Assembly: GCF_020532705.1 (NCBI RefSeq) | Contig: NZ_JAJAVD010000001.1 | Span: 744,001-808,000 of the forward strand | Origin: Methylobacillus caricis | GTDB taxonomy: Bacteria; Pseudomonadota; Gammaproteobacteria; Burkholderiales; Methylophilaceae | Direction: 5' to 3' | DNA: 64,000 bases | Part shown: positions 44,962 through 62,791 of the stretch, piece by piece | Numbering within the stretch: position 1 is the first letter of the stretch | How the letters are laid out: every line of letters starts with the position of its first letter | Position numbers and translations under genes: made by a program | The notes under the pieces: generated by a model | What the model saw: only the letters and a program-made list of their open reading frames with translations | Told to the model about the DNA's origin: nothing | Databases searched by the model: none

Positions 44962-44968
44962 TTGGGTG

Positions 44969-45030: not shown

Positions 45031-46254
45031 ATGAAAACCTTGATTAAGCTGGATTTTGAAAAGCCTGCCTGGGAGCAGGATGGTCAGATTCATAATCGCT
45101 GGCACCCTGATCTGCCGATGGTGGCGATGGTGAAGCCTGGCGATGAGTTCCGTGTCGAGTGTATGGACTGGACTGGTGGACAGATCGGCAATAACGATAG
45201 CGCCAACGATATCCGGGATGTGGATTTATTGCAGGTGCATTACCTGAGCGGCCCTATCGGGGTTGAAGGGGCAGAGCCGGGTGATCTGATGGTGGTGGAT
45301 ATCCTGGATGTAGGCACCATGCAGGATCAGCAGTGGGGCTTCAATGGCCTGTTCGACAAGAACAATGGCGGCGGTTTCCTGACCGACCATTATCCTGAGG
45401 CATCCAAGACCATCTGGGATTTCCATGGCATCTATACTACTTCCCGCCATGTACCCAATGTGAAATTCGCCGGCATCATGCACCCAGGTTTGATTGGCTG
45501 CCTGCCTTCCCGCGACTTGCTGGAAAAGTGGAACAAGCGTGAAGCAGACCTGATTGCCACGGATCCTGACCGTGTTCCTGCGTTGGCCCTGCCGCCCAAT
45601 GAGAAAGCTGCAGTAATGGGCCGCCTGCAGGGTGATGCAGCAACAGCTGCTGCCAAGGAAGGCGCCCGTACCGTACCCCCACGTGACCATGGCGGTAACT
45701 GCGATATCAAGAACCTGACCAAGGGCTCCCGTATTTTCTTCCCGGTCTATGTCAAGGACGGCGGTCTTTCCATGGGCGACCTGCACTTCTCGCAAGGAGA
45801 CGGTGAAATCACTTTCTGCGGCGCGATCGAGATGGCGGGCTACCTGGATATCAAGGTGGCGTTGATCAAGGATGGTGTCAAGAAGTACGGCATCAAGAAC
45901 CCATTGTTCCAGCCTAGTCCATTGACCCCTAACTACCGTGATTACCTGATCTTTGAAGGCATCTCTGTAGATGAACAAGGCAAGCAGCATTACCTCGATG
46001 TACATGTGGCTTATCGCCAGGCTTGCCTGAATGCCATTGAGTACCTCAAGAAGTTTGGGTACAGCGGCGAGCAAGCCGTATCCATTCTGGGTACGGCACC
46101 GGTGGAAGGGCATATCAGCGGCATTGTCGATATCCCGAATGCCTGCGCCACCTTGTGGTTGCCGACAGAGATCTTTGATTTCGACCTGAAGCCAAATGCG
46201 AATGGACCGATCAAGGTCGTTACCGGCGAGATTGATGTAGCCAAGACTTCTTAA
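45031..46254 (+). CDS. fmdA: Formamidase / acetamidase
   Basis: 407 residues, matching FmdA formamidases of Methylophilus and relatives, which hydrolyse formamide (and less well other short amides) to ammonia and the acid. Conserved segments are the N-terminal ECMDWTGGQIGNNDSANDI, FAGIMHPGLIGCLPS, HGGNCDIKNL and MGDLHFSQGDGEITFCGAIE, the last including metal-binding residues. A ggtaagga ribosome site lies nine bases upstream. fmdB follows after 29 bp. With the porin and Urt transporter it gives amide nitrogen assimilation. Confidence 0.96.
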   Translation: MKTLIKLDFEKPAWEQDGQIHNRWHPDLPMVAMVKPGDEFRVECMDWTGGQIGNNDSANDIRDVDLLQVHYLSGPIGVEGAEPGDLMVVDILDVGTMQDQQWGFNGLFDKNNGGGFLTDHYPEASKTIWDFHGIYTTSRHVPNVKFAGIMHPGLIGCLPSRDLLEKWNKREADLIATDPDRVPALALPPNEKAAVMGRLQGDAATAAAKEGARTVPPRDHGGNCDIKNLTKGSRIFFPVYVKDGGLSMGDLHFSQGDGEITFCGAIEMAGYLDIKVALIKDGVKKYGIKNPLFQPSPLTPNYRDYLIFEGISVDEQGKQHYLDVHVAYRQACLNAIEYLKKFGYSGEQAVSILGTAPVEGHISGIVDIPNACATLWLPTEIFDFDLKPNANGPIKVVTGEIDVAKTS

Positions 46255-46283: not shown

Positions 46284-46643
46284 ATGCCAATGTATGAATA
46301 CAGATGTGATGAATGCGGTGTGTTTGCCGCCATGGGAAAAATGAGCGAGTCGAGCTCACCGACAATCTGTCCGGATTGTGGGGAGTTGAGCGAGCGCATT
46401 CTCTCTGTGCCGCGTCTGGCCATTCTTGGCAAGGCTCAGCGAAGCGCGCACGAACGCAACGAGAAATCTGCCAATGAGCCCAGGTCCACCCGCCGCTCCA
46501 GTTGCGGATGTGCCGGGACTCATACGTGTAGTTCGTCCAGCGCCAAATCCAGTTCCGCTCAGGGAGCCAATGCAAAAGAGAAAGGAAGCCTATTGCAGAT
46601 GCAGACGAAGAAAACGGCCCGTCCCTGGATGTTGGGACATTGA
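46284..46643 (+). CDS. fmdB: FmdB-type zinc-ribbon protein
   Basis: 119 residues. The N-terminal half is the FmdB zinc ribbon: MPMYEYRCDECGVFAAMGKM then TICPDCGELSERIL, giving two CxxC pairs. The C-terminal half is Ser/Ala/Lys-rich with another Cys cluster (SSCGCAGTHTC) and is probably disordered. FmdB was named as a possible regulator of formamidase expression in Methylophilus; a DNA- or protein-binding role is not proven. A long palindromic repeat starts at its stop codon. Confidence 0.9.
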   Translation: MPMYEYRCDECGVFAAMGKMSESSSPTICPDCGELSERILSVPRLAILGKAQRSAHERNEKSANEPRSTRRSSCGCAGTHTCSSSSAKSSSAQGANAKEKGSLLQMQTKKTARPWMLGH

Positions 46644-48102: not shown

Positions 48103-48171
48103 CGAGTAACAGAAGATTCATAGAAGCATGGATTCATCTTCGTAAGTAAGAAAAAAGGCTGGAGGCCGATT

Positions 48172-49089
48172 ATGTTTGATTATTCAATGGCAGAGATAGG
48201 CAATATCGTTGTCATGCAGGCTTTCTCGGGGTTAAGCCTGTTCAGCGTTCTTCTCCTGATGGCACTTGGCCTAGCGATCATCTTCGGGCAAATGGGCGTG
48301 ATCAATATGGCCCATGGCGAATTCATGGCCATAGGCGCCTACACCACGGTGTTTCTTTCCAAGGTTGCCGAAACTTACGGAATTGTTAACTACTACTTCC
48401 TGTTTGCGATTGTGATCGCATTCATCATCGCATTCATCATTGGCTATATCATCGAGTTTGCCCTGATACGGCATCTCTACAAGCGGCCGCTTGATACCTT
48501 GCTTGCCACCTGGGGGTTGAGCTTGGTGATGCAGCAGATTTTCCGTTCCACCTTTGGCGCCAAGGAAGTCAGCGCCGTGTTGCCAGAATGGCTCATGGGC
48601 TCTTTCCAGCCGACGCCGGACATCGATATCCCGATCAACGGGGTGTTTGTGCTGGCGCTTGCATTGGTGGTGACTGTCGGTGTCTATATATTCATGTTCC
48701 GCTCCCGCTGGGGCCTGCGTGTGCGTGCCACGGTGCAGAACCGTGTGATGGCTGGTGCTGTTGGCATCAATACCAAGAAGGTTGACCGTGTCACTTTCGC
48801 GCTGGGCTGCGGTATCGCCGGCGTGGCTGGTGCTGCTTTCACCACGATTGCCTCGACTGGCCCGACCACGGGTTCGCTCTACATCGTCGACAGCTTCATG
48901 GTCGTCGTGTTCGGTGGCGCAGCCAGCATATTGGGTACCATTGCCTCCGCATTCGGCATTGCCCAGGCGCAATCCATCCTGCAATTCTTCATGACCAGCT
49001 CCATGGGCAAGGTCGCGACACTGATGGTGATCGTCGGCATCCTCATGATGCGTCCTGAAGGCCTGTTTGCATCCAAAGTACGTAAGTAA
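48172..49089 (+). CDS. urtB: Urea ABC transporter permease UrtB
   Basis: 305 residues, eight or so membrane segments, LivH type. ALGLAIIFGQMGVINMAHGE is the conserved start of the permease fold, and RVTFALGCGIAGVAGAAFTT carries the EAA-like coupling region. A ggctggagg ribosome site precedes the ATG. UrtB and UrtC form the inner-membrane channel for urea. It lacks the extra N-terminal domain that some UrtB proteins have. Confidence 0.94.
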   Translation: MFDYSMAEIGNIVVMQAFSGLSLFSVLLLMALGLAIIFGQMGVINMAHGEFMAIGAYTTVFLSKVAETYGIVNYYFLFAIVIAFIIAFIIGYIIEFALIRHLYKRPLDTLLATWGLSLVMQQIFRSTFGAKEVSAVLPEWLMGSFQPTPDIDIPINGVFVLALALVVTVGVYIFMFRSRWGLRVRATVQNRVMAGAVGINTKKVDRVTFALGCGIAGVAGAAFTTIASTGPTTGSLYIVDSFMVVVFGGAASILGTIASAFGIAQAQSILQFFMTSSMGKVATLMVIVGILMMRPEGLFASKVRK

Positions 49090-49101
49090 GGGGAATCGGA
49101 C

Positions 49102-50271
49102 ATGAATGAAACATTAAGCAAAATACTGGGCGGAAAGCAGGGGGCCATCGGCCTTGCCATCCTCGCCGCCTTTATCATGATCGTGCTGCCGCTGGGCCTG
49201 GATCCTTTCCGCCTGGGCCTGATCGGCAAGTACCTCACTTACGCCTTTGTCGCTGTCAGTCTGGTGCTGTTGTGGGGTAACGGCGGCATCCTGAGCCTGG
49301 GCCAAGGCATCTTCTTCGGGCTTGGCGGCTACGGCATGGCGATGTTCCTCAAGCTGGAAGCCTCTGACCCTGTCAGTACCGCCATCCAATCCACACCCGG
49401 CATCCCGGACTTCATGGACTGGAACCAGCTGACCGCGCTCCCATGGTTCTGGGAGCCGTTCAAGAGCTTGCCCCTGACGATTCTGGCGATCTTGGTGGTA
49501 CCGACCATCTTCGCCTTCCTGATCGGCTATGCCATGTTCAAGCGCAGGGTGGGCGGGGTATATTTCGCCATCATCACCCAGGCGATCGCGCTGATCCTGA
49601 GCATTCTGATTGTCGGCCAGCAAGGCTATACCGGCGGCGTGAACGGCATTACCGACCTCAAGACGTTGTTGGGCTGGGATATCCGCAGCGATAGCGCCAA
49701 GTATGTGCTGTATTACGTCAATGCCGGTCTGCTGATCGCCTGCATCCTGCTCTCTCGTTATGTCTTGAGCAGCAAGTTCGGCATGCTGCTGCTGGCGATG
49801 CGCGACAAGGAAGAGCGCGTGCGCTTCTCTGGCTACGACGTGTCCAACTTCAAGATATTCATCTTCTGCCTGGCTGCCATGATCTCGGCCATTGGCGGTG
49901 CGATGTTCACCCTGCAGGTTGGCTTCATGTCGCCTACCTTCATCGGTATCGTACCTTCGATCGAGATGGTGATCTTCGCGGCAGTCGGCGGGCGTATGTC
50001 GCTGATCGGCGCGGTATATGGCACCTTGTTGGTCAATTTCGGCAAGACCATGTTCTCCGAGACCTATCCTGAGTTGTGGCTGTTCCTCATGGGTGGCTTG
50101 TTCATTGCAGTGGTGATGTTCTTCCCTAACGGTATCGCTGGAATCTACGACAAATACGCCAAGAAAGTACCTTTCCTGCGCAAGTTGTCTGAAGAAACAC
50201 CAAAGGCCAAAAAAGCTGAAGCCATACCAGCAGCACCGGTTGAAACCAAGGAAGCGGGGGTAAAAGCATGA
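49102..50271 (+). CDS. urtC: Urea ABC transporter permease UrtC
   Basis: 389 residues, LivM type with about ten membrane segments. WGNGGILSLGQGIFFGLGGY is the family signature and AMRDKEERVRFSGYDVSNFK the coupling loop. The C-terminal 30 residues (ETPKAKKAEAIPAAPVETKE) form a Lys/Ala/Pro-rich cytosolic tail not needed for the fold. It starts 12 bp after urtB and overlaps urtD by four bases (ATGA). Confidence 0.95.
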   Translation: MNETLSKILGGKQGAIGLAILAAFIMIVLPLGLDPFRLGLIGKYLTYAFVAVSLVLLWGNGGILSLGQGIFFGLGGYGMAMFLKLEASDPVSTAIQSTPGIPDFMDWNQLTALPWFWEPFKSLPLTILAILVVPTIFAFLIGYAMFKRRVGGVYFAIITQAIALILSILIVGQQGYTGGVNGITDLKTLLGWDIRSDSAKYVLYYVNAGLLIACILLSRYVLSSKFGMLLLAMRDKEERVRFSGYDVSNFKIFIFCLAAMISAIGGAMFTLQVGFMSPTFIGIVPSIEMVIFAAVGGRMSLIGAVYGTLLVNFGKTMFSETYPELWLFLMGGLFIAVVMFFPNGIAGIYDKYAKKVPFLRKLSEETPKAKKAEAIPAAPVETKEAGVKA

Positions 50272-51011
50272 GTAACACCGATTTTGTACTGGCAGTGGAA
50301 GACCTGACTGTTTCGTTCGATGGCTTCAAGGCGGTGGACAAGCTCAATATGTACATCGACAAGAACGAGCTTCGCGTTGTGATTGGTCCTAACGGGGCTG
50401 GCAAGACGACGGTGCTGGACCTGATCTGCGGCAAGACCAAGTCTACGGCCGGCTCCATCAAGTTCAAGAACCGCGAGCTCACCAAGCTCTCGGAACACGA
50501 AATCGTGCGGGCCGGGGTGGGACGCAAGTTCCAGACGCCATCGATCTACGAGAACCTCTCGGTCTACCAGAACCTTGAAGTTTCCTACCCCAAGGGGCGC
50601 GGCGTCTTCGGCAGCCTGTTCTTCAAGCGCAGCGATGAAGTCATGGCGCAGGTATACAAGATTGCCAAGGAGATCATGATGGAGGACATCCTGCATACCG
50701 AGGCGGCATTGTTGAGCCACGGCCAGAAGCAATGGCTGGAAATCGGCATGCTGCTGATGCAGGAGCCCGAGCTGTTGATGCTGGACGAACCTGTAGCAGG
50801 CATGAGCGCGAAGGAGCGCGACCAGACGGCCGAACTGTTGAACCGTATCTGCCAGAACCGTTCCGTGATCGTGATCGAGCATGATATGGAGTTCGTCAAG
50901 AAGATTGCGCACAAGGTCACCGTGCTGCACCAGGGCAAGATTCTGGCGGAAGGCGCCATGGATAAAGTACAAGCCAACGAAAAGGTCATTGAGGTTTATC
51001 TGGGCCATTAA
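50268..51011 (+). CDS. urtD: Urea ABC transporter ATPase UrtD
   Basis: 247 residues, LivG type. Walker A GPNGAGKTT, ABC signature region LLSHGQKQWLEIGMLL and Walker B ELLMLDEPVAGMS are intact, with the H-loop in VIVIEHDMEF. The signature departs from the usual LSGGQ (LSHGQ), as is common in UrtD. It powers the UrtBC channel together with UrtE. Coupled to urtC by overlap. Confidence 0.95.
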   Translation: MSNTDFVLAVEDLTVSFDGFKAVDKLNMYIDKNELRVVIGPNGAGKTTVLDLICGKTKSTAGSIKFKNRELTKLSEHEIVRAGVGRKFQTPSIYENLSVYQNLEVSYPKGRGVFGSLFFKRSDEVMAQVYKIAKEIMMEDILHTEAALLSHGQKQWLEIGMLLMQEPELLMLDEPVAGMSAKERDQTAELLNRICQNRSVIVIEHDMEFVKKIAHKVTVLHQGKILAEGAMDKVQANEKVIEVYLGH

Positions 51012-51069
51012 GACGTGCGGTGTTTAAAAGCACCGCCAGCCCAGAACCACTCATAGAAAGGATAGCAAA

Positions 51070-51759
51070 ATGATAGAGATTGAAGACCTGACAGTGAGCT
51101 ACGGCCAGAGTGAAGTTATTCACGGCATCAGTTTCAAGGCGGAAAAAAACGAAACACTTGCCATCATGGGCCGCAACGGCATGGGCAAGACCACCCTGTT
51201 CAAGTCCCTGATGGGCATCCTGCCGAGCAAGAGTAAGAAAGCGGCTGTGGATGGGGTGGATTTTGGTGGTAACGAAACTTTCCAGCGCGTGCAGAAAGGC
51301 CTGGCCTACGTGCCGCAGGGGCGTATGATCTTCCCGACCATGACCGTGCAGGAAAACATCGAGACCGGCCTGGAGAAATCCAAGTCGCGCCAGATTCCAG
51401 AAGATATCTACGCCTTGTTCCCGGTGCTTTACGACATGCGCAACCGCAAGGGCGGCAACCTCTCGGGCGGTCAGCAGCAGCAATTGGCGATTGCCCGTGC
51501 ACTGGTGACCGATCCCAAGGTGCTGTTACTGGATGAGCCGACTGAAGGTATCCAGCCGTCCATCATCAAGGATATCGCCAAGGTGCTGAATGAAATCCGC
51601 AAAATGCGTGAAATCACCATCATCGTGTCTGAACAGGTGTTGAGCTTCACCATGGAAATTGCCGATCGTATTATCGTGATCGACAAGGGTAATTTCATCC
51701 ATGAAAACAAGCGTAGCGAGGTGGATGCGGCCAAGATCAAAGGCTATTTGTCCGTATAA
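51070..51759 (+). CDS. urtE: Urea ABC transporter ATPase UrtE
   Basis: 229 residues, LivF type. Walker A GRNGMGKTT, signature NLSGGQQQQLAIARALV and Walker B VLLLDEPTEGIQPS are present. It is the second ATPase of the urea importer and follows urtD by 58 bp, with agaaaggatag upstream. It ends the transporter genes; palindrome U2 starts 19 bp after its stop. Confidence 0.95.
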   Translation: MIEIEDLTVSYGQSEVIHGISFKAEKNETLAIMGRNGMGKTTLFKSLMGILPSKSKKAAVDGVDFGGNETFQRVQKGLAYVPQGRMIFPTMTVQENIETGLEKSKSRQIPEDIYALFPVLYDMRNRKGGNLSGGQQQQLAIARALVTDPKVLLLDEPTEGIQPSIIKDIAKVLNEIRKMREITIIVSEQVLSFTMEIADRIIVIDKGNFIHENKRSEVDAAKIKGYLSV

Positions 51760-51835: not shown

Positions 51836-51934
51836 CCAATTTCACTGGCCGTTAGATTGTTTTTAAGGTGGGGAAAACCAGATAATCCATGATTGAGTGC
51901 TAGATGCAGGTGTTTTTATGGCAGGATGCTGCCC

Positions 51935-52792
51935 ATGGATGATGTTGAATCAAGCACGATGACAAGGTTGGACAAACGCTGGTTTGCCTCGCTGGCGCTG
52001 GATTTTTCGCTGCGGCAGGATAGAACGACCTTGGTGGGCAAGCGACATAAAGGTCCATTGGTCGTGCAAAAAATGCTCTACCCGGAAGGGGATGAAGTCT
52101 GCCATGGCATCATTATCCACCCGCCGGGCGGTGTAGCTGGCGGTGATCAGTTGTTGCTGCAAACCAGCCTGGAACAGGGCGCACATGCTTTGCTGACAAC
52201 ACCTGGCGCAGGCAAGTGGTACAAGGCCAACGGCCAGGCGGCCAGCCAGCAGCTCAAGTTCGACTTGGAGCCGAGTGCCAGTCTGGAATGGTTGCCACAG
52301 GAGAACATCCTGTTTGATGGTTCCAGTGTTGGGTTTTCTGCGGAGATCGCATTGCAGGGTAATGCGGTGTTCTGTGGTTGGGATATCCTGTGTTTTGGCC
52401 GTCAGGCGCGTGGTGAAACATGGACTGAAGGTGAGTTGCAGCAAGGGTTGAGCATCAGGCGTGATCAGCGCCTGATCTGGAATGAACGCATGTTTCTGCA
52501 TCCTGAAAGTCGCGTTTTAAAATCGGTAGCCGGTTTGCGAGGTTTTCCTGTGAGTGCTAGCCTAGTGGTGGCTGCAGGGGCAATGCCAGCCGATGTGCTG
52601 GAGGCTTGTCGCATGGTCGAGGCAGACCAAGGGGCACAATATGGCGTTACTGCCTTGCCTGAGATATTTTCAGCGCGGTATATAGGCAACTCTTCAGAGG
52701 CTGCCAAGCAGTATTTCGAGCGTCTATGGCAATTGCTGAGGCCTTGGTATGCCGGGCGTGCCGCAGTCAGGCCGCGTATCTGGAACACCTGA
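51935..52792 (+). CDS. ureD: Urease accessory protein UreD
   Basis: 285 residues from the ATG at 51935; an upstream frame opening is not supported. UreD-family segments: LVVQKMLYPEGDEVCHGIII, HPPGGVAGGDQLLLQTSLE and TTPGAGKWYKANGQAASQQL. UreD is the scaffold that binds apo-urease and carries UreF and UreG during nickel insertion. It opens the urease operon here, as in many betaproteobacteria, and is followed 42 bp later by ureA. Confidence 0.95.
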   Translation: MDDVESSTMTRLDKRWFASLALDFSLRQDRTTLVGKRHKGPLVVQKMLYPEGDEVCHGIIIHPPGGVAGGDQLLLQTSLEQGAHALLTTPGAGKWYKANGQAASQQLKFDLEPSASLEWLPQENILFDGSSVGFSAEIALQGNAVFCGWDILCFGRQARGETWTEGELQQGLSIRRDQRLIWNERMFLHPESRVLKSVAGLRGFPVSASLVVAAGAMPADVLEACRMVEADQGAQYGVTALPEIFSARYIGNSSEAAKQYFERLWQLLRPWYAGRAAVRPRIWNT

Positions 52793-52834
52793 GTTTTCGT
52801 CCAAGATTGAGATAACCCATTTAAGAATGTAGCC

Positions 52835-53137
52835 ATGGAATTAACCCCAAGAGAAAAAGACAAGCTGCTGATTTTTACTGCGGCACTAGTGGCGGAGCGG
52901 CGCAAGGCGCGTGGCCTCAAGCTCAATTATCCTGAATCGATTGCCTATATCTCCGCCGCCATTATGGAAGGCGCGCGCGACGGCCAGACCGTGGCTGAGC
53001 TGATGGGATATGGCGCTACCTTGCTGACGCGCGATGATGTGATGGAAGGCGTGCCGGAGATGATTCCCGAGATACAGGTGGAGGCGACTTTTCCGGATGG
53101 GACTAAGTTGGTCACCGTCCACCAACCGATTCCTTAA
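52835..53137 (+). CDS. ureA: Urease subunit gamma
   Basis: 100 residues, the standard length. [20 protein letters not shown] and [20 protein letters not shown] are near-invariant UreA segments. It is the smallest urease subunit, contacting UreC. A palindromic repeat (U3) separates it from ureB, which is unusual since ureA and ureB are normally close. Confidence 0.97.
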
Positions 53138-53145
53138 ACGTGGCC

Positions 53146-53232
53146 CACAATCCATCGCTAGCTGCGTTGCGCCTCCTTGCCGTACTCATCTGTACTGTCT
53201 GCGTCGGCGCGCCTTGCTATCAATGGCTTGTG
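53146..53232. repeat. Palindromic element U3 (between ureA and ureB)
   Basis: Outer arms at 53146-53162 and 53216-53232 pair at 14 of 17 positions and are unrelated in sequence to those of U1. The core is nearly identical to that of U1. Confidence 0.75.
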
Positions 53233-53295
53233 AACCACTCGAGTAATGCTAATGGGAATGACATTACAAACTGAATACGTATTGGAATAACCAAC

Positions 53296-53604
53296 ATGAT
53301 CCCAGGTGAAATGAAGATAGACGCAGGCGACATCCTGCTCAACGACGGGCGCGAGACGGTGACGCTGGAAGTGGCCAATACAGGTGACCGGCCGATTCAA
53401 GTGGGCTCGCATTATCATTTTTATGAAACCAATGAGGCTTTGTCCTTTGATCGGCAAATGGCCTATGGTTTCCGGCTGGATATTGCGGCTGGCACGGCTG
53501 TGCGTTTTGAGCCAGGCCAGACCCGCACGGTGCAACTGGTGGCGCTGGCGGGGCTACGCAGGGTGTATGGGTTTGCTGGCAAGGTGATGGGAGCATTGGA
53601 ATGA
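53296..53604 (+). CDS. ureB: Urease subunit beta
   Basis: 102 residues. [20 protein letters not shown] and [20 protein letters not shown] are conserved UreB segments. The ATG follows a weak ribosome site. The stop overlaps ureC by four bases (ATGA). The gap of 158 bp from ureA is filled largely by repeat U3, so ureB-ureC may be translated at a different level from ureA. Confidence 0.97.
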
Positions 53605-55304
53605 GCGTCAAGATAGACAAGCAGGCCTATGCCGAAATGTTCGGCCCCACCGTGGGAGATCGCATCCGTCTGGCAGACACTGAGCTTTGGGCTGAGGTGG
53701 AAAAAGACTACACCCTCTATGGTGAGGAAGTGAAATTCGGCGGCGGCAAGGTGATCCGTGATGGCATGGGGCAAGGACAAGGGCTGGCGAGCGAGGTAGC
53801 TGATACCGTGATCACCAATGCCCTGATCATTGACCACTGGGGCATCGTCAAGGCCGACATCGGCATCAAGGGTGGCTATATTTCAGCCATTGGCAAGGCG
53901 GGTAACCCTGATATACAACCCGGGGTGGATATCCCCGTGGGTGCCGGGACTGAAGTGATTGCCGGTGAAGGCATGATTGTGACGGCTGGCGGTATCGATA
54001 CGCACATCCACTTTATTTGCCCTCAGCAGATAGAAGAAGCGCTCATGTCAGGCGTCACCACCATGATAGGGGGCGGCACTGGTCCCGCGACTGGCACTTT
54101 TGCCACTACCTGTACGCCCGGTCCATGGCATATCCACCGTATGCTGCAATCGGCGGATGCCTTCCCAATGAACCTGGGCTTCCTCGGCAAGGGCAACGCC
54201 AGCCTGCCGCAGCCGTTGCGCGAGCAGGTGAATGCAGGCGTGGTCGGCCTCAAGTTGCATGAAGACTGGGGCACAACGCCAGCAGCGATTGATAATTGCC
54301 TAAGCATTGCCGAGGAAATGGACGTACAGGTGGCCATCCACTCCGACACGCTCAATGAGTCCGGCTTTGTCGAAACCACGATAGATGCCTTCAAGGGCAG
54401 GACCATCCACACCTTCCATACCGAAGGTGCAGGCGGCGGGCATGCGCCCGACATCATCAAGGCCGCAGGCTATGCCAATGTTCTGCCGTCTTCCACCAAT
54501 CCGACCCGCCCATTTACCATCAATACCATTGATGAACACCTGGATATGCTCATGGTCTGCCATCACCTGGATCCTGCCATTGCAGAGGATGTGGCTTTTG
54601 CCGAAAGCCGTATACGCCGCGAGACTATCGCCGCGGAAGACATCCTGCACGACCTGGGCGCATTTGCGATGATGTCCTCGGACTCGCAGGCCATGGGGCG
54701 CGTGGGCGAGGTGGTGATCCGTACTTGGCAGACCGCGCACAAGATGAAGGTGCAGCGCGGCCCGCTGGAACAGGATAGCGAGCGCAACGACAATTTCCGC
54801 ATCAAGCGTTATATCGCCAAATACACGATCAACCCTGCATTGACGCATGGCATTGCCCACGTCGTCGGTTCGATTGAAATCGGCAAGCTGGCCGACCTCG
54901 TGCTCTGGCGTCCGGCATTTTTCGGGGTCAAGCCTTCCACCATCCTCAAGGGCGGCATGATCGCGGCTGCCGTGATGGGCGATGCCAATGCCTCGATTCC
55001 GACGCCGCAGCCCGTGCATTATCGCCCGATGTTCGGTTCATATGGCGGGGCATTGCAGACTTCGGTGACTTTCGTTTCGCAAGCAGCATTGAATAACCCT
55101 GAAGTCGCGGCGCTCAACCTCAAGAAGCCACTGGTGGCGGTCAAGGGGACACGTGGCGTCAGGAAGCCGGATATGGTGCATAACGGCTGGATGCCGGAGA
55201 TCGACGTGGATCCGGAAACTTATGAAGTGCGTGCCGATGGCATGGTGCTGAGCTGTGAGCCGGCGGAAATACTCCCCCTAGCCCAACGCTACTTCCTTTT
55301 TTGA
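53601..55304 (+). CDS. ureC: Urease subunit alpha (catalytic)
   Basis: 567 residues. All active-site features are visible: H135/H137 in [14 protein letters not shown], the carbamylated Lys at 218 in [12 protein letters not shown], the His in [13 protein letters not shown] and [14 protein letters not shown], and the mobile flap Cys-His in [20 protein letters not shown]. With UreA and UreB it forms the nickel urease that splits urea into ammonia and carbamate. Translationally coupled to ureB. Palindrome U4 follows. Confidence 0.98.
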
Positions 55305-55310
55305 TGCGCA

Positions 55311-55398
55311 CAGACTAGCGTCCCTGGCGGCGTTGCTTTAGCTTGCCGTACTAAGCGTACTGTCTGCGCTAAAGCGCCTTGCCAGGAACGCCAGTCTG
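55311..55398. repeat. Palindromic element U4 (after ureC)
   Basis: The best-paired copy: outer arms 55311-55328 and 55381-55398 match at 16 of 18 positions, inner arms GCTTTAGC (55335-55342) and GCTAAAGC (55368-55375) are perfect, and two GTAC flank the centre. Confidence 0.8.
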
Positions 55399-55429
55399 CA
55401 CGCTCAAGTAAGAGTTGAGGGTATTGAAG

Positions 55430-55452
55430 TGTACGTCTGCGGCAAAGCGCCT
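55430..55452. repeat. Possible half copy of the palindromic element
   Basis: GTACGTCTGCGGCAAAGCGCC resembles the right half of U4 (GTACTGTCTGCG...AAAGCGCC), without a left partner. It lies between U4 and ureE. Confidence 0.35.
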
Positions 55453-55514
55453 AGTCAGAATCGCTTTCTTGAGCGCTTGTGGTGTGACCATTTTGGAGAG
55501 TTTGAAGACTGAGC

Positions 55515-56009
55515 ATGTTAGGAATCAGCAAGAAAATAGAAAGCGCCAGCCAGGTGGACGATCAACTGGTGCTGCCGTTCGACCGCAGGCAGAAGAGCCG
55601 TTTGCGCGTGGAGCTGGCTTCGGGCACCGAGGCAGCCTTGCTGCTGGAGCGCGGCACGGTGTTACGCGGCGGCGATTTGCTGCAGGCCGAGGACGGGCGC
55701 GTGGTGCAGGTGATAGCGGCGGATGAGCCGGTATTGCGGGTGACGGCAGCGACGCCGCGCGAGCTGGCACGGGCGGCATACCACCTGGGCAACCGCCATG
55801 TGCCGCTTGAAGTCGGCGATGGCTGGCTGCGCCTGGAGCAGGACCATGTATTGCAGGAAATGCTGCTCGGGCTGGGCGTACAGGTAGAAGGGCAGATGGC
55901 CCCGTTCGAGCCAGAGGCCGGCGCATATGGCGGCGGACACCGACACCACGACGATGACGGGCATGCGCCTTCGATCCGCCAGCCGGCGCGCTTGAGGACG
56001 CATGAATAA
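55515..56009 (+). CDS. ureE: Urease accessory protein UreE (nickel chaperone)
   Basis: 164 residues. The N-terminal domain ([20 protein letters not shown]) and the metal-binding domain ([13 protein letters not shown]) are typical; GNRHVPLE carries the conserved His. A His/Asp-rich C-terminal tail ([15 protein letters not shown]) can bind extra nickel. UreE delivers Ni to the UreDFG complex. Its end overlaps ureF by eight bases. It lies 210 bp after ureC because of repeat U4. Confidence 0.94.
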
Positions 56010-56685
56010 GTCCAAGTCGCTGGTACGCCTGCTGCAATTGGCGAGCCCGATGCTGCCGGTGGGGGCCTATAGCTATTCGCAGGGGCTGGAGTGGGGTATC
56101 GAGTCCGGCGAAGTGCATGACCTGGCAAGCGCACAGGCCTGGATAGGCGATGTATTGCAGGTTTACCAGGGCAGTTTCGAGCTGCCTGTGCTGAGCCGGT
56201 TTTACCGTGCGTGGCAGCGTGGCGACGGCGAGGCATTGAACGAATGGAATGCATTTTACCTGGCCGGACGCGACAACGCCGAGGCCTTGGCCGAGAGCAG
56301 GCAGATGGGGTATTCGCTCAAGCGCTTGTTGCTGGAATTTGATGATTTGCCTGATGCCTGGACGGTCATGATGGAGGCTTTGCCAACGGCCTCATTCCCT
56401 GCATTGTATGCCGGCATCAGCCAGGCATGGGATATAGAGGAACAGGATGCCTTGCAGGCGTATGCCTGGTCGTGGCTGGAGAACCAGGCCAGCGCGGCGA
56501 TGAAGGCGGTGCCGCTGGGACAGGTGGCGGGACAGAAGATATTGCTGGGTGTGGCGGACAGGATTCCTGCATTGGTGGAGGAGGCGATGCGTATGCCGGA
56601 TTTTATGATCAGTAATTTTTGTCCGGCGTTGACCATTGCGGGGTGTAGGCATGAGACGCAATACAGCCGGTTGTTCAGGTCTTAG
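56002..56685 (+). CDS. ureF: Urease accessory protein UreF
   Basis: 227 residues, all-helical. [20 protein letters not shown] is the diagnostic start, and the C-terminal half ends in [12 protein letters not shown]. UreF binds UreD and gates the GTPase UreG during activation of urease. It overlaps ureE. The expected next gene, ureG, is 334 bp away, with a structured repeat in between. Confidence 0.94.
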
Positions 56686-57019
56686 GTGACTCAGCAATAT
56701 TGTTGGTAATGAGATGTCGCCTTTCGCTTGCCAGCGAGTTCCTTTATTTTGCTTCGCCAAAATAAAGGAACCAAACAAAAGGCGACCCCGATTGTCTGCG
56801 TCCCGGAGCTTGGCTCCGGGCAACCTGCGTTGCTCGTGCCGGATGGGTGCTTGCTGAACTCGCTGCGCTCAGACAGACGCAAGCCCTGATCCATCCGTCA
56901 CTTGCGCTACTCGGCGCAGCCAGAGGGGGAGGATTGGGTGCGTGGCCAGCCTTTTGCTTGTAGTGAGTGACAGTGTTGAACTGTTGTGGTGAAGTAATTT
57001 TTGATATTGGACCAAAGTA
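56686..57019. other. Non-coding gap between ureF and ureG
   Basis: 334 bp filled mostly by repeat copy A (see 56718). No credible gene on either strand. Because ureF and ureG normally adjoin, the repeat has probably been inserted. A promoter for ureG could lie near 56950-57000 but none is clear. Confidence 0.7.
56718..56935. repeat. Structured intergenic repeat, copy A
   Basis: Contains a 14-bp perfect hairpin (GTTCCTTTATTTTG / CAAAATAAAGGAAC, loop CTTCGC, 56738-56771), a second hairpin CCCGGAGC-TTG-GCTCCGGG (56802-56820) and the later CTCGGCGCAGCCAGA. The architecture recurs in copy B (62952-63165) and in inverted fragment C (62792-62833). Confidence 0.75.
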
Positions 57020-57631
57020 ATGCAGATTAAAGAACCTTTACGTGTCGGTATCGGCGGCCCTGTCGGGTCGGGCAAGACGGCGCTCACATTGGCCTTGTGC
57101 CAGCGCTTGCGCGATGTGTACAACATCGCGGTGGTGACGAACGACATCTATACGCGGGAGGACGCCGAGTTCCTCACGCGCAATGAGGCATTGGCGCCCG
57201 AGCGCATCATCGGGGTGGAGACGGGCGGCTGCCCGCACACGGCGATCCGCGAGGATGCCTCGATGAACCTCGAGGCGGTGGCGCAATTGAGCGAGCGCTT
57301 CAACCCGCTGGACATCGTGTTTGTCGAAAGCGGTGGCGATAACCTGGCGGCAACATTTAGCCCGGAGTTGTCCGACCTGACGATCTATGTGATCGACGTC
57401 GCGGCGGGCGAGAAGATTCCGCGCAAGGGCGGGCCGGGCATTACCAAATCCGACCTGCTGGTGATCAACAAGATCGACCTGGCGCCCATGGTTGGCGCCT
57501 CTTTGGAGGTGATGGACAGGGATGCGCGCAAGATGCGGGGAGAGCGGCCTTTCATTTTTACCAACCTGAAAACCGGACAGGGCCTGGAAGAGATTGTCAG
57601 TTTTATAGAAAAACAGGGGCTTATGCTGTAA
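57020..57631 (+). CDS. ureG: Urease accessory GTPase UreG
   Basis: 203 residues. P-loop [11 protein letters not shown], the metal-binding Cys-Pro-His in [17 protein letters not shown], the switch region [14 protein letters not shown] and the guanine motif [11 protein letters not shown] are intact. UreG hydrolyses GTP to drive nickel insertion. The gene stands 334 bp from ureF, but its function with UreDEF is not in doubt. HupE/UreJ follows after 73 bp. Confidence 0.96.
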
Positions 57632-57704
57632 TGCATTCAGCAGGGTAGTTGCTTGAATGCCGATCATATTGAATATCTGGAACAACCCAAAAGGAATCAC
57701 CACC

Positions 57705-58265
57705 ATGAAAACCTCCTATTTCTCAGCCTTGGGCCTGCTGGCATTTTCTTCTCTTGCCATGGCGCATCCCGGACACGAGGTACAAAGTACCTATGCCGGA
57801 TTCATGCATCCCCTCACCGGTCTTGACCACTTGCTGGTGATGCTGGCAGTAGGGTTGTGGGCTGGCAAGATCGGTGGTAACGCTCGCTGGCAGTTGCCCC
57901 TGACTTTTGTCCTGGTGATGGCAGCGGGGGCAGTGTCGGGTATGGGTGGCTATGTCATCAGCGGCGTGGAAACTGCCATTGCTGCCAGCGTGATGGCATT
58001 GGGCGTGCTGCTGGTGATCAGCCTGCCTTTGTCTCGCGGGCTCCAGATCGGGCTGGTTGCCTTGTTTGCCATGTTCCATGGGATGGCGCATGGGACTGAG
58101 CTGGCAGTACAGAATGGTATGGCGGTCATGCTGGGCATGCTGGTTGCAACCGCATTGCTGCATGCTGCGGGGTTGATGCTTTCGTCCTTACGTTTGCCGA
58201 AAGCAGTGCATACGCTTTTCGGATGCACCATGGTGGTGCTGGGTGCCTATATCATGGTGACGTGA
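57705..58265 (+). CDS. ureJ: HupE/UreJ-family nickel permease
   Basis: 186 residues from the ATG at 57705 (aaggaatcacc upstream). A signal-like first helix ends in SLAMAHPGHEV, and HPGH supplies a metal-binding His motif; HPLTGLDHLLVMLAVGLWAG is the family signature and MFHGMAHGTEL another His-bearing segment. About six membrane helices. HupE/UreJ proteins import nickel or cobalt, so this completes the urease set. ureJ is the usual name beside urease genes. Confidence 0.9.
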   Translation: MKTSYFSALGLLAFSSLAMAHPGHEVQSTYAGFMHPLTGLDHLLVMLAVGLWAGKIGGNARWQLPLTFVLVMAAGAVSGMGGYVISGVETAIAASVMALGVLLVISLPLSRGLQIGLVALFAMFHGMAHGTELAVQNGMAVMLGMLVATALLHAAGLMLSSLRLPKAVHTLFGCTMVVLGAYIMVT

Positions 58266-58422: not shown

Positions 58423-61400
58423 ATGAGCGTCCTGGCCAACAACTATAAAGAGCTGAGTGAACCCGCCGAGGTGATGGAGCCGACGCAGCGTATTGTCAAG
58501 GTGCGCCGTGACTACAATACCTGGGTCGTCAACGAAACACTGGAAGATTATGCCTTGCGGTTTACCCCGCGCTCTTTCCGCAAGTGGTCCATCTTTCGCG
58601 TTTCCAATACTGCATTTGGCGCCATCTCCTTCCTGGTGCTGGAGGCCATAGGCGGCACTTTGGCCGTCAATTACGGCTTTACCAATGCGCTGTGGGCAAT
58701 CATGGCGATTGCTCTGGTGATTTTCCTGACCGGTTTGCCCATTAGCTACTACGCCGCCAAGTTCGGTCTGGACATGGATCTGCTCACGCGCGGCGCTGGT
58801 TTTGGTTACATAGGCTCCACCATTTCTTCTTTTGTCTATGCTTCGTTTACCTTCATCCTGTTTGCGCTGGAGGCTGCCATCATGGCCTATGCGCTGGAGC
58901 TTTACTTCAACCTGCCGCTATATGCAGGCTATCTGGTGAGCGCGCTGGTGATTGTGCCCCTGGTCACGCATGGCGTGACATTGGTCAGCCGCATCCAGAT
59001 GATCACCCAGCCGATCTGGCTTGTGTTGCTGGCATTGCCCTATATCTTCATTATCTACAAGGATCCGGGCGTGATAGACCGCCTGACTGCTTTCGCCGGC
59101 AAGTCGGGATATGACAATGAATTCAATTGGTTGATGTTCGGTACCGCCATGGCGGTGGGCATGGCGTTGATTCCGCAGATAGGCGAGCAGGTGGATTTCC
59201 TGCGGTTCATGCCGGAGAAAACCCGGGAAAACCGCTTTCGCTGGCATTTCGGCGTGATTGTTGCCGGACCGGGTTGGATATCCCTGGGTATGCTGAAGAT
59301 GCTGGGAGGTGCCTTGCTGGCATACCTGGCGTTTGAAGGCATGCAGTCATTTGAGCAGGTGGTCAATCCAAACCAGATGTACCTTGCCGGTTTCGGGCAG
59401 GTGTTCTCCAACCCGCAAGTTGTCTTGGCTGTGACCGTGCTGTTCGTGGTGATTTCCCAGATGAAGGTCAACATGACCAATGCCTATGCCGGCTCGCTGG
59501 CTTGGTCCAACTTCTTTGCCCGCCTAACACATAGCCACCCTGGCCGTGTCGTCTGGGTGGTGTTCAATGCCATGATTGCGATCATCCTCATGGAAATGGA
59601 TGTGTTCCAGGCGCTGGAACAAGTGCTGGGTTTGTATTCCAACATAGCGATCTCCTGGATCACTGCCGTGGTGGCAGACCTTGTCATCAACAAGCCGCTT
59701 GGCCTGAGTCCCAAGGGCATAGAGTTCCGCCGTGCCTATCTTTATGACATCAACCCGGTAGGGGTGGGGGCCATGGTGATTGCCTCCATGCTCTCGGTCG
59801 CAGCATTTTTTGGATTGTTCGGCATAGAGGCGGAGGCTTTTTCCGCTTTTATTGCACTGGGCACAGCCCTGGTGGTGTCGCCATTGATTGCATGGCTGAC
59901 CAAGGGCAAGTACTACATTGCCCGTAAGCCAGTGAGCTACAAGCCCGTCAGCGGCGTGCAGCGTTGCAGTATCTGCGAGCGGGATTATGAAGTGGATGAT
60001 ATGGCGCATTGCCCGGCTTACCAAGGGGCGATTTGCTCCCTGTGCTGTTCGCTGGATGCCCGCTGCAACGATGTCTGCAAGCCTCATGGGCGCATAGAGA
60101 ACCAGTGGCAGGGCATCATGCGGCGGGTTCTGCCCGATGCCTGGACCGAGGTATTGCAGAACGGCCTGGGACATTACCTGTTGCTGATGGCAGTCACCCT
60201 CGCGTTCCTGAGTGCATTGTTTGGCCTGATCTATTTCCATGAGTCGCTCACCATGACGGGTGAAAAGGAGGCCTTGTTACCAGAACTGCGCCTTGGGTAT
60301 CTCAAGATATTTGCTGCGCTGGCATTCGCCAGTGGCATCATTGCATGGTGGATTGTGCTGACCTCGGAAAGCCGTCGCGTTGCGCAGGAAGAGTCCAACC
60401 GCCAGACCAACCTGCTGCAGCGCGAAATCGTGCTGCACCGGCAGACCGATGCCGAACTGCAACGCGCGCGACAGGTGGCGGAACAGGCCAACCAGGCCAA
60501 GAGCCGCTATATCACAGGGATCAGCCATGAGCTGAGAACGCCGCTCAACAGCATATTGGGCTATGCCCAATTGCTGGACAACGACCCGACCATCCCGGAA
60601 AACCGGCACCAGTCCATACGCGTGATCCGCCGCAGCGGCGAGCACCTGTTGTCGCTGATCGAAGGCACGCTGGATATTGCCCGTATAGAAAGCGGCAAGC
60701 TGACTTTCGACCTGCGCCTCGTGCGTTTCCCGGAATTCATCCAGCAGCTGGTGAGCATGTTCGAGCTGCAGGCGCGCAACAAGGGCATCAGTTTTCATTA
60801 TGAACTGCATGGCGAGTTGCCCAAGGTGGTGCGTATCGACCAGAAGCGCTTGAGCCAGATACTTATCAATATCCTCGGCAATGCCGTGAAATTTACACGC
60901 CACGGGGGAGTCTCGTTCAAGCTGCACTATGCGCGCGAGATGCTTAACATCAGCATAGAGGACACCGGCCCCGGCATTGCGCCGGATGAGATCGACAAGG
61001 TTTTCGAGCCGTTTGCGCGCGGTACTGCCGCAGCCAACAGCAATATCGGCGGCACCGGCCTTGGGCTCACCATCAGCAAAATGCTGACCGAGCTCATGGG
61101 CGGTCAACTCACGTTAAGCAGCACGCCAGGGCTGGGCAGCAAGTTCAATATCCGTTTGTTCCTTTCCCAGGTCAGGGTGGCGGAGGATATCGAGACCGCT
61201 TCCATGCCCATGCCCGTGGCATACAAGGGGCCGCGCCGCAGGGTACTGGTGGTGGACAACGAGCAGGTGGACCGTGAGCTGCTCAAGAGCATCCTGCAAC
61301 CACTGGGCTTCGAGGTGGCCGAGGCTGCCAATGGTCGCGAGTGCCTGCAGGTCTATACCGAGTTCAAGCCCAATGTGATTCTCATGGACCTCGCCATGCC

Positions 61401-61866
61401 GGACATGGATGGCTGGGAGGCCAGCTACATGATACGCAAGGTGCACCAGTCCGACGTGCCGATTGCGATTGTCTCGGCCAATGCCTTTGACAAGGGGTTG
61501 GAGAATACCGCGGGTATCCCGGCCAGCGATTTTATCGTCAAGCCGGTCAACGTGATGGAATTGCTCGCCTGGATAGGCGAACAGCTCAAGCTGGAGTGGG
61601 TCACCGAGATCATTGCGCCTGCCGTGGGTTTCTCGTCCGTGGATATGTTGGAGAATACAAAGCTGGTATTGCCTGAGCAGGCACAGCTGGATGAGTTGAT
61701 GGCCTTGGTGAAAGTTGGATATGTGCGTGGTATTTCACGAAAACTGGATGAAATTGGCCATGATCAGCGCTACGAGTTGTTTGTGGCTGCCATGAAGAAA
61801 TTGTCACGGCAGTTTGAGCTGGATGCCATGAAAAAAATGCTGGAAGAAGTGAATGATGGAGACTAG
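58423..61866 (+). CDS. NCS1 transporter-hybrid histidine kinase fusion, probable urea/ureide sensor
   Basis: 1147 residues in one frame. Residues about 50-500 form a complete NCS1 (nucleobase:cation symporter, CodB-like) domain with about 12 membrane segments; LLTRGAGFGYIGSTISSF is a family hallmark. A Cys-rich segment (515-552; CSICERDYEVDDMAHCPAYQ then CSLCCSLDARCNDVC) follows, then two membrane helices (about 582-606, 626-648). The kinase has H702 in SHELRTPLNSILGY, the ATP-binding N820 region, DTGPGIAPDE and GGTGLGLTIS. A receiver domain has phospho-acceptor D989, and about 100 unassigned residues end the chain. Inferred to sense a urea-like solute by its transporter domain. Confidence 0.92.
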   Translation: MSVLANNYKELSEPAEVMEPTQRIVKVRRDYNTWVVNETLEDYALRFTPRSFRKWSIFRVSNTAFGAISFLVLEAIGGTLAVNYGFTNALWAIMAIALVIFLTGLPISYYAAKFGLDMDLLTRGAGFGYIGSTISSFVYASFTFILFALEAAIMAYALELYFNLPLYAGYLVSALVIVPLVTHGVTLVSRIQMITQPIWLVLLALPYIFIIYKDPGVIDRLTAFAGKSGYDNEFNWLMFGTAMAVGMALIPQIGEQVDFLRFMPEKTRENRFRWHFGVIVAGPGWISLGMLKMLGGALLAYLAFEGMQSFEQVVNPNQMYLAGFGQVFSNPQVVLAVTVLFVVISQMKVNMTNAYAGSLAWSNFFARLTHSHPGRVVWVVFNAMIAIILMEMDVFQALEQVLGLYSNIAISWITAVVADLVINKPLGLSPKGIEFRRAYLYDINPVGVGAMVIASMLSVAAFFGLFGIEAEAFSAFIALGTALVVSPLIAWLTKGKYYIARKPVSYKPVSGVQRCSICERDYEVDDMAHCPAYQGAICSLCCSLDARCNDVCKPHGRIENQWQGIMRRVLPDAWTEVLQNGLGHYLLLMAVTLAFLSALFGLIYFHESLTMTGEKEALLPELRLGYLKIFAALAFASGIIAWWIVLTSESRRVAQEESNRQTNLLQREIVLHRQTDAELQRARQVAEQANQAKSRYITGISHELRTPLNSILGYAQLLDNDPTIPENRHQSIRVIRRSGEHLLSLIEGTLDIARIESGKLTFDLRLVRFPEFIQQLVSMFELQARNKGISFHYELHGELPKVVRIDQKRLSQILINILGNAVKFTRHGGVSFKLHYAREMLNISIEDTGPGIAPDEIDKVFEPFARGTAAANSNIGGTGLGLTISKMLTELMGGQLTLSSTPGLGSKFNIRLFLSQVRVAEDIETASMPMPVAYKGPRRRVLVVDNEQVDRELLKSILQPLGFEVAEAANGRECLQVYTEFKPNVILMDLAMPDMDGWEASYMIRKVHQSDVPIAIVSANAFDKGLENTAGIPASDFIVKPVNVMELLAWIGEQLKLEWVTEIIAPAVGFSSVDMLENTKLVLPEQAQLDELMALVKVGYVRGISRKLDEIGHDQRYELFVAAMKKLSRQFELDAMKKMLEEVNDGD

Positions 61867-62791
61867 AAAAGAAACAGCGGTTGTCCTGATTGTGGATGAT
61901 GTGCCTGATAATCTGGCCGTACTGCATGATGCGCTGGACGAGTCAGGTTACATGGTACTGGTAGCCAATAATGGCGAAGCTGCCTTGTCACGCGCAGAGG
62001 AGGCGCGGCCCGATATTATCCTGCTGGATGCCATCATGCCCGGGATAGATGGCTTTGAGGTGTGCGCACGCCTTAAAGCCAATCTCAATACGCGCCATAT
62101 CCCGGTGATTTTTATGACGGGGCTGACCGAGTCTGAACATGTGGTAGCGGGATTTGCTGCAGGCGGCACCGATTACGTCACCAAGCCTATCCGGACAGTG
62201 GAGGTGCTGGCGCGGATCACTACTCACCTCCAGGCCTCAAAACAGATGCACCAGACCCGTGGCGCACTGGATGCATTTGGTCAGGCGGCGATCGCCATCC
62301 TGCCGGTTTCGGGCCGTATCGTCTGGCAGACACCCTTGGCAAGGAGCTGGATGCAGCGATATTTCACTGACGCAGAAATAGATCCGCAGACCCATACGCC
62401 AAGTCCCTTGTTGAAATGGCTGGCCGGATTACCGCTGGACAGCCATGCGGATGCCAATCCGCTGGTGATTGTGCAAGGCAGCGGGCGGCTGATTTTCTCA
62501 GCGGGCGACCTGAATGCCGAAGAGCAATGGATTATCCTGTTGCGCGAGGAATCTGATGCCGCACAGATCGAGGCATTGATGAGCACTTTCGGCCTGACCC
62601 AGCGTGAATCTGAAGTGCTGTACTGGGCAATCAAGGGCAAGACCAACCGCGATATCGGCGACATTCTCGGCACCAGTCCGCGCACAGTGAACAAACATAT
62701 GGAGCATGTGTTTGCCAAGCTGGGTGTGGAAACCCGTACGGCCGCCGCAGCGCTGGCGACGAGCAAGATGAGGAACTTGAAGGCTGGATAG
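61853..62791 (+). CDS. Response regulator, REC plus LuxR-type HTH
   Basis: 312 residues (ATG at 61853, a second ATG three bases later). Receiver domain about 10-130 with phospho-Asp 59 (DIILLDAIMPGIDGFEV) and TKPI Lys. A 110-residue middle region of no recognised family resembles a PAS-like input (FGQAAIAILPVSGRIVWQT). The C-terminal LuxR/GerE HTH (LTQRESEVLYWAIKGKTNRD ... VNKHMEHVFAKLGVETR) binds DNA. It overlaps the transporter-kinase gene by 14 bp, so it is its cognate output. Targets are probably the amide/urea genes, by position. Confidence 0.92.
   Translation: MMETRKETAVVLIVDDVPDNLAVLHDALDESGYMVLVANNGEAALSRAEEARPDIILLDAIMPGIDGFEVCARLKANLNTRHIPVIFMTGLTESEHVVAGFAAGGTDYVTKPIRTVEVLARITTHLQASKQMHQTRGALDAFGQAAIAILPVSGRIVWQTPLARSWMQRYFTDAEIDPQTHTPSPLLKWLAGLPLDSHADANPLVIVQGSGRLIFSAGDLNAEEQWIILLREESDAAQIEALMSTFGLTQRESEVLYWAIKGKTNRDIGDILGTSPRTVNKHMEHVFAKLGVETRTAAAALATSKMRNLKAG

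Follow-up and report, generated by a model that had tools for sequence, protein, structure and literature searches.

A 64,000-nucleotide stretch of the Methylobacillus caricis genome (the window; positions 744,001 to 808,000 of contig NZ_JAJAVD010000001.1) carries, at positions 58423 to 62791, the gene for a hybrid histidine kinase whose sensor part is a transporter module, followed by the gene for a response regulator (RR). Comparative evidence suggests that this kinase and its regulator switch on urea and small-amide uptake and breakdown genes in many proteobacteria. We consider it probable, at roughly 0.7, that the two genes encode a two-component system, that its sensor descends from an NCS1-type carrier for urea and short-chain amides, and that the system controls uptake genes through a palindrome located upstream of them. 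This reading names a candidate for the amide- and urea-responsive regulator of the fmd gene cluster, offers a likely operator that could be tested by one footprint, and suggests what the cryptic AmsSR system of Acinetobacter baumannii might bind. It also places a second transporter family beside the known SLC5 transporter-kinases and suggests urea and small amides as NCS1 substrates. The module occurs in many Klebsiella plasmid records and, in the case that was opened, sits beside urea uptake genes.

The kinase is encoded in a single open reading frame (ORF) without a break, which overlaps the RR ORF by 14 bp. The domain order is a 12-helix NCS1-type transporter, an eight-cysteine linker, two helices, HisKA, HATPase and a receiver, and the parts are as follows.

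58423..61866, + strand: NCS1 transporter-fused hybrid histidine kinase (AmsS-type), 1147 amino acids, assigned from Pfam, alignment and model
58543..59922, + strand: NCS1-type transporter module, residues ~41-500, 12 helices in the model
59950..60081, + strand: eight-cysteine module, residues ~510-553, cytosolic by inferred topology
60163..60492, + strand: two additional helices plus the long helical linker that leads to the kinase, residues ~581-690, from the model
60496..61164, + strand: HisKA (692-758, H702 invariant) and HATPase (806-914)
61243..61569, + strand: receiver domain, residues 941-1049, D989 and K1040 invariant
61576..61863, + strand: C-terminal 96 residues, four short helices (moderate confidence), consensus without a conserved His
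61853..62791, + strand: partner RR, receiver, linker and LuxR/GerE helix-turn-helix, 312 amino acids

The HisKA, HATPase and receiver assignments are Pfam matches, as are those of the RR (receiver 11-122, GerE/LuxR 248-302). In a 26-row alignment, residues H702, N816, N820, D989 and K1040 of the kinase are invariant, as expected of a hybrid kinase, and the RR keeps D59 and K111 in 107 of 107 rows. Each of the eight cysteines (515, 518, 530, 538, 541, 542, 548 and 552) is invariant in 57 of 57 rows of the sensor alignment, and the module that they form probably binds metal and would lie on the cytosolic side. In the AlphaFold model, long helices at 581-610 and 613-689 follow the cysteine-rich stretch and lead into the kinase. 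No relevant Pfam match to a histidine phosphotransfer (Hpt) domain was found in three kinase C-termini, whose consensus lacks a His, and the four short helices modelled there leave an Hpt domain within the kinase itself unsupported. Because no Hpt was found, the route by which phosphate would reach the RR is a conjectured one.

Relatives were collected as 140 loci (18 from the family, 42 from the phylum and 80 from named relatives), of which 138 are distinct (L079 equals L192 and L069 equals L194). From 138 of the 140 loci we recovered 139 ORFs longer than 800 amino acids that carry this sensor, 137 of them longer than 1100 amino acids, and we therefore reject a chance or artefactual fusion. 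The initial annotation had described one frame that joins a transporter to a kinase and overlaps a receiver-LuxR gene; the ORF, the Pfam matches, the AlphaFold model and the relatives all confirm it, and its proposed search for the same domain order elsewhere is answered by these long ORFs. Two loci, L177 (6901-10847) and L197 (6349-10156), vary the architecture: their kinases are shorter and non-hybrid, carry this sensor and precede a receiver-HisKA-HATPase protein, and a formamidase gene is nearby.

The kinase gene has a single match in its own genome, and matches occur in 50 of 150 Methylophilaceae genomes (fragments and one broken copy included). In a genome of the same genus (G062, contig C26, 209385-211391), the kinase is in four pieces with internal stops, through either decay or sequencing error. 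In a Pseudomonadota sample, 64 of 398 genomes match at E<=1e-3; 52 are counted as strong, and the other 12 (eight weak transporter-like matches and four short or fragmentary ones) were not counted as kinases. The best 80 of 595 named relatives are 54-71% identical and include Methylotenera, Methylophilus, Duganella, Azonexus, Variovorax and a metagenome-assembled genome of Methylophaga, and 55 further loci encode proteins with 47-93% full-length identity to the window protein. Among plasmid records 534 match, 342 of them from Klebsiella, with some chromosome-sized entries among these records and a few standalone permeases among the matches.

One line of evidence for a role in urea and amide use is the gene neighbourhood. 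For these counts, a urtA match required at least 35% identity, and a locus was called well-flanked if at least 6 kb was available on both sides. A urtA/fmdD, fmdA or ureC gene lies near the kinase in 99 of 112 distinct well-flanked loci (113 of all 138), every one of the 42 phylum loci has at least one of urtA, fmdA and ureC, and an RR match directly follows the kinase in 130 of 138 loci. The arrangement varies: the kinase lies downstream of urease in the Methylophilaceae and is divergent from fmdD, with formamidase behind, in many other loci, and elsewhere it sits beside or upstream of a canonical urtA or is accompanied by divergent urease genes. Because the arrangement changes while the urea/amide link persists, we reject the idea that these neighbours are merely hitch-hiking. 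Annotated plasmids of Burkholderia vietnamiensis, Sinorhizobium medicae, Klebsiella pneumoniae and Methylovirgula agree with the linkage. Absence of such a tie in other genomes had been named beforehand as grounds for abandoning the proposal, and the tie holds.

Presence and absence across genomes follow the same pattern. Among the 150 family genomes, kinase and UrtA occur together in 47, the kinase alone in 3, UrtA alone in 1 and neither in 99 (Fisher 4e-34, which ignores phylogeny); two of the three genomes with a kinase and no UrtA are only 75% and 82% complete. For UreC the corresponding counts are 46, 4, 0 and 100, with a p-value that likewise ignores phylogeny. In the phylum sample, 38 of 398 genomes encode an FmdD-type UrtA (at least 70% identity), and the kinase is present in 38 of these 38.

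A palindrome, ATACGTCA-N2-TGACGTAT, was found de novo in divergent intergenic regions between the kinase and fmdD (urtA). Training used 27 of 32 such regions, with 5 longer than 900 bp left out and no Methylophilaceae member included. Within this training sample 24 of the 27 regions score at least 19.9 bits (the other three score 11.9, 11.0 and 1.9), and the motif log-likelihood is 253, versus 30-32 in three mononucleotide shuffles, which were given fewer starts. A matrix rebuilt from 20 of the 27 sites was used to scan 141 loci (the 140 plus the window, two duplicates included; 2.85 Mb), yielding 98 sites of at least 15 bits in 81 loci. By comparison, a first-order Markov draw gave 2 sites, and 20 column-shuffled matrices gave a mean of 5.3 (range 0-15). 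Of the 98 sites, 94 have the start of a match to urtA, fmdA, fmdC, x43 (an ORF for a lipoprotein-like protein) or the kinase at most 450 bp downstream; outside the training intervals, 67 of 71 sites lie upstream of such genes. Removing the window and the two duplicates leaves 94 sites in 78 of 138 loci.

By gene, 49 of 68 urtA upstream regions carry the site (25 of 41 in untrained loci), as do 8 of 9 fmdC upstream regions, none of which was trained on. It also occurs in all five named kinase loci of the plasmid collection; the Methylovirgula site lies 5' of an aliphatic amidase gene and the A. baumannii site between the kinase and a permease gene. In 34 genomes that lack a kinase match, a scan of approximately 1 kb 5' of urtA gave no site (best score 8.0 bits), and where a kinase-bearing genome has a second urtA at a distance, that copy has a site in only 1 of 6 cases. 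The earlier proposal of a solute sensor for urea or amides draws its support from this association of the palindrome with kinase-bearing loci, together with the locus linkage. No RR-gene upstream region has a site (0 of 136), and a direct operator at the RR gene or at ureC, for which 60 upstream regions were scanned, was rejected.

In the window, the only mismatch-free match to the core, at 43658-43673, lies between x43 and fmdC (0.07 matches expected; at least one in 6 of 100 shuffles). The genes around it form a urea/amide island, listed below.

43024-43656, - strand: x43, lipoprotein-like ORF, no Pfam match
43657..43674, no strand assigned: predicted operator GTACGCAATATGACGTAT, 23.0 bits, 109 bp 5' of fmdC
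43783..44961, + strand: outer-membrane porin, called fmdC by analogy with Methylophilus (Porin_O_P over cut-off, ExtI below cut-off)
45031..46254, + strand: fmdA, formamidase, over cut-off
46284..46643, + strand: fmdB-like zinc-ribbon protein, 119 amino acids
46801..48045, + strand: fmdD/urtA, urea-amide binding protein, over the UrtA cut-off
48172..50271, + strand: two ABC permease genes (fmdE/F, urtB/C type), BPD_transp_2, finer names by position
50268..51759, + strand: two ABC ATPase genes (urtD/E type), ABC_tran, finer names by position
51893..57631, + strand: urease cluster, UreC over cut-off
51893-52792, + strand: ureD
53601-55304, + strand: ureC
55515-56009, + strand: ureE
56002-56685, + strand: ureF
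57020-57631, + strand: ureG
57657..58265, + strand: HupE/UreJ-family protein

Within the window, the promoter of fmdC, which heads this cluster, is the predicted direct target. The x43 gene recurs beside an fmdC-type porin gene in L067, L079 (L192), L184 and L193, with the operator between them, and it may belong to the regulon.

Evidence on what the sensor recognizes begins with its fold. The transporter part of the window protein has no Pfam match at E<=1, PF02133 included. Its residues 41-229 match the NCBIfam cytosine permease model at 6.9e-7, but at 28 of 326 bits, far under the cut-off, and a profile search of the PDB with the sensor returned nothing beyond two weak matches of zinc-finger type (E 2.5 and 4.7). 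A K. pneumoniae permease that is 43% identical to the module does match PF02133 (38.1 bits versus a cut-off of 23.5), and eight further homologous permeases scanned gave no such match. An AlphaFold model of the sensor, built on a 57-row alignment, has a predicted local distance difference test score (pLDDT) of 88 and a predicted template modelling score (pTM) of 0.88. Its best PDB fold matches are CodB (template modelling score 0.80) and Mhp1 (0.65), both by target length. The helices at 57-69/71-84 and 236-249/252-260 are broken, as are transmembrane helices 1 and 6 (TM1 and TM6) of the NCS1/LeuT fold, and the complete NCS1 fold claimed from the sequence is thereby borne out. Membership of SLC5 is rejected: the fold ranking puts NCS1 first and no SLC5 family appears among Pfam matches at E<=1. 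Neither an SLC5 domain nor a STAC linker was found at that Pfam threshold, and no dedicated STAC model search was made.

The putative substrate site was compared through a joint sequence alignment with Escherichia coli CodB, at ~20% identity, with residue roles taken from PMC9379551, where they are numbered for another species. Two aromatic residues that sandwich the substrate (CodB W108 and F204) are described there as conserved across NCS1. In the 57 sensors, the W108 position is F in 43 and L in 14, and the F204 position is L in 55, such that the NCS1 aromatic sandwich is not kept. The position of the sodium-site residue T278 is K348 in 57 of 57 sensors, and that of T279 is V or I in a 19-row alignment, a pattern unlike Na2-coupled members; the N280 equivalent is kept. 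Because proton-coupled NCS1 members exist (PMC13390362), loss of the Na2 threonines is no bar to NCS1 membership. All 57 sensors agree at eight putative site residues (T143, Q252, E255, Q256, D258, R261, K348 and N350), which standalone permeases have as well; the kinase sensors and these permeases also largely share the TM6 stretch QI[G/A]EQxDxLRF.

Replacement of the stacking Trp/Phe and of the sodium-site Thr would fit a small, non-aromatic ligand. Because the aromatic sandwich is not kept, urea and short-chain amides are more plausible ligands than ureides or nucleobases. The initial annotation had listed urea, amides or ureides; its first two candidates are favoured and the third has become less likely. 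We regard it as quite unlikely that the module instead senses another small solute, such as a ureide, a guanidine-type compound, cytosine or hydantoin, with urea merely as a breakdown product. NCS1 members do carry cytosine, hydantoins and allantoin, and MetT carries the non-ring compound metformin (PMC13390362; MetT is set beside the window sensor by published description only, not by sequence). Against such a solute stand the lost sandwich and neighbours that are formamidase, aliphatic amidase, urease and urea/amide importer genes; in addition, no allantoinase, hydantoinase or cytosine deaminase is named in the annotated regions opened, whose gene tables are incomplete.

The invariant site residues, shared with permeases, would suit a protein that is mainly a working urea/amide transporter, with signalling that follows flux rather than occupancy. 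CbrA, an SLC5 analogue, takes up histidine (PMC13022988), and yet chimeras of CbrA and CrbS argued against a dependence on transport (PMC5715377), and many of our loci also have a dedicated ABC importer. On balance we judge flux sensing rather unlikely. Perfect conservation of all eight cysteines in the 57 sensors could likewise indicate that the cysteine module is the real sensor, of redox or of a metal such as nickel or zinc, and that the carrier is a relic anchor. Part of the module persists at the end of the K. pneumoniae and Acinetobacter standalone permeases, and a fuller version in the Methylovirgula permease. Many transporter-core residues are invariant too, however, and in actinobacterial permeases (L211, L215, L217 and L218) the module is reduced or degenerate, as expected of an accessory part, whereas proteobacterial permeases keep part of it; a cysteine-based sensor is thus very improbable.

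The standalone permeases, from the plasmid collection, are 40-54% identical to the sensor module and bear directly on the ligand. Six of nine distinct permease loci adjoin urease, formamidase or aliphatic amidase genes: urease in K. pneumoniae and Acinetobacter ursingii, formamidase in Moraxella osloensis, Tsukamurella and Methylovirgula, and aliphatic amidase in Methylovirgula (besides formamidase) and Arthrobacter U41 (with an acetate-CoA ligase gene). Permease matches outside the nine loci come from Acinetobacter lwoffii (two), A. johnsonii, Acinetobacter NEB149, two A. baumannii records, Streptomyces chartreusis and Arthrobacter NicSoilB11. Several standalone permeases have been named cytosine or allantoin permease automatically; one of these, annotated as a cytosine permease, is the gene after the K. 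pneumoniae urease cluster (L209 8944-10551 and L219 8001-9608), which encodes the ~43% identical protein mentioned above and may be a urea carrier. None of eight standalone-permease stretches (seven distinct genes, hosts not checked for a kinase elsewhere) has the palindrome. In Mycobacterium smegmatis, msmeg_3402 (a putative cytosine permease, likened by name only) and msmeg_3403 (a formamidase), neighbours by number, appear in one nitrogen-starvation list (PMC4222082). In a sensor tree with very long outgroup branches, the nine standalone permeases form one clade (support 100/99), and the hybrid-kinase sensors needed two changes, with one origin in 38% of bootstrap trees. We lean slightly towards a clade of NCS1 carriers of urea and short amides, existing both as standalone permeases (the K. 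pneumoniae and A. ursingii urease-locus proteins among them) and as the input of AmsSR-type kinases that would control the acquisition of urea and amides through a shared operator, across Pseudomonadota and conjugative plasmids. In the open PMC literature searched, no report of urea or short-chain amides as NCS1 substrates was found, nor any publication about a kinase fused to an NCS1 protein or a urea carrier of the NCS1 family.

A mechanism can be proposed from these parts. Urea or a short amide would occupy the carrier site from the periplasm, by occupancy or in a transport cycle, and the resulting change would pass through the cytosolic eight-cysteine module, the two extra helices and the long helical linker to the kinase. 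Phosphate would then be transferred to the LuxR-type partner, which would bind ATACGTCA-N2-TGACGTAT 5' of amide and urea uptake genes and activate them. In the window, fmdC and the genes behind it, including those for formamidase and the FmdD-type ABC importer, would be switched on, and the urease genes might be reached by read-through. The kinase pair may in this way control the urea/amide island.

Several observations weigh against this proposal. Among the well-flanked loci, 13 of 112 have no urea or amide gene in the stretch examined (L184 is one of the 13, with urtA and ureC immediately beyond that stretch), and ten proteins from five of the 13 showed no amide link. No site of at least 15 bits occurs in 60 of 141 loci, and sites are found upstream of only 48 of 135 kinase genes (25 of 108 in untrained loci), 8 of 30 fmdA genes (all in training loci; 0 of 6 in untrained ones) and 0 of 60 ureC genes. 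With a looser operator pattern, the window shows no enrichment (12 matches versus 11.9 expected), and the core pattern occurs at 6 places in the genome, versus 27 for a reversed control; the operator signal is therefore one of position. Three standalone permease loci (Streptomyces, Arthrobacter StoSoilB13, with six neighbours scanned, and A. baumannii) lack an amide or urea enzyme gene. Finally, published work ties the A. baumannii member of the kinase family to colistin phenotypes and to energy metabolism rather than to urea (PMC10112286, PMC9146086).

That member, AmsSR or StkSR (ABUW_2427/2426), has already been studied genetically, with these phenotypes as the subject (PMC10112286, PMC9146086). 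Four of five published primer sequences match exactly at the expected places of locus L212, and the fifth has no match within two mismatches. AmsSR is described as having 14 predicted transmembrane helices, a hybrid kinase without its own Hpt domain, a LuxR-type RR and a 4-bp overlap (PMC10112286). Its sensor part is 56% and its RR 45% identical to those of the window, and the kinase has full-length relatives in the same family. The locus is divergent from a standalone permease gene, which has the kinase pair as its only relevant neighbour, and ten nearby ORFs examined include no urea/amide enzyme. A word search of the AmsSR main text found none of NCS1, permease, urea, allantoin, nucleobase and cytosine (PMC10112286), and one of the StkSR main text found none of permease, urea and allantoin (PMC9146086); supplements of both were not searched.

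The AmsSR work raises the alternative that the pair controls urea and amide genes but that the module senses membrane energy, or internal nitrogen or energy status, instead of a urea/amide ligand. Among the compounds tested, only carbonyl cyanide m-chlorophenylhydrazone (CCCP) induced the AmsSR promoter, the mutants were altered in membrane potential and metabolism (PMC10112286), and K348 at the sodium-site threonine would permit proton coupling. Dinitrophenol (DNP), also a protonophore, did not induce the promoter (PMC10112286), however, and the evidence from neighbouring genes, operator sites and standalone permeases favours urea and short amides. We consider energy sensing unlikely and retain recognition of a urea/amide ligand as the preferred reading.

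Other known systems resemble the window pair in part. CbrA and CrbS are 'transceptors' in which a LeuT-fold carrier is fused to a kinase, and CrbS has a C-terminal receiver as well; CbrA binds and takes up histidine and CrbS/R controls acetate use (PMC5715377, PMC13022988). Their carriers belong to SLC5, not NCS1, with 13 transmembrane helices and a STAC linker, whereas the window protein has the cysteine module and two extra helices. CodB and Mhp1 share the fold, with the weak cytosine-permease profile match and the kept N280 equivalent; the window family differs in its replaced sandwich and sodium-site threonines and in the fused kinase. The Methylophilus methylotrophus fmdCABDEF cluster has the gene content and order of 43783-50271. 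A review gives formamide and urea as its inducers, and its passages on the cluster name only a putative positive regulator and no transporter-kinase pair (PMC10781810).

An ST307 plasmid locus of K. pneumoniae (L210) has urtA-E, formamidase and a divergent kinase, with the palindrome between, and we infer that it is the UTS cluster (UrtABC/AmiF) of CG307. The main text of the CG307 UTS preprint contains neither 'histidine kinase' nor 'two-component' (PMC13060141). On this IncF plasmid, the formamidase, urtA-E and divergent kinase genes (5930-15402) lie close to resistance genes and insertion elements. Two genome papers mention a kinase and regulator beside urt genes, with no analysis of them in the passages concerned (PMC2907700, PMC13296017), and these probably belong to the window family.

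Across the M. caricis genome, three of five scored core matches reach at least 15 bits: the fmdC site (23.0), one 5' of a major facilitator superfamily (MFS) transporter gene (19.9) and one inside an ORF (16.5). A sixth could score at most 19.1 bits with the best flanks. The 19.9-bit site (L222 1500-1517, contig C1 near 679698) lies just 5' of the MFS gene, which is a possible distant regulon member. Apart from the island, the window also contains a tRNA cluster, Gly-Cys-Gly, at 25323-25647.

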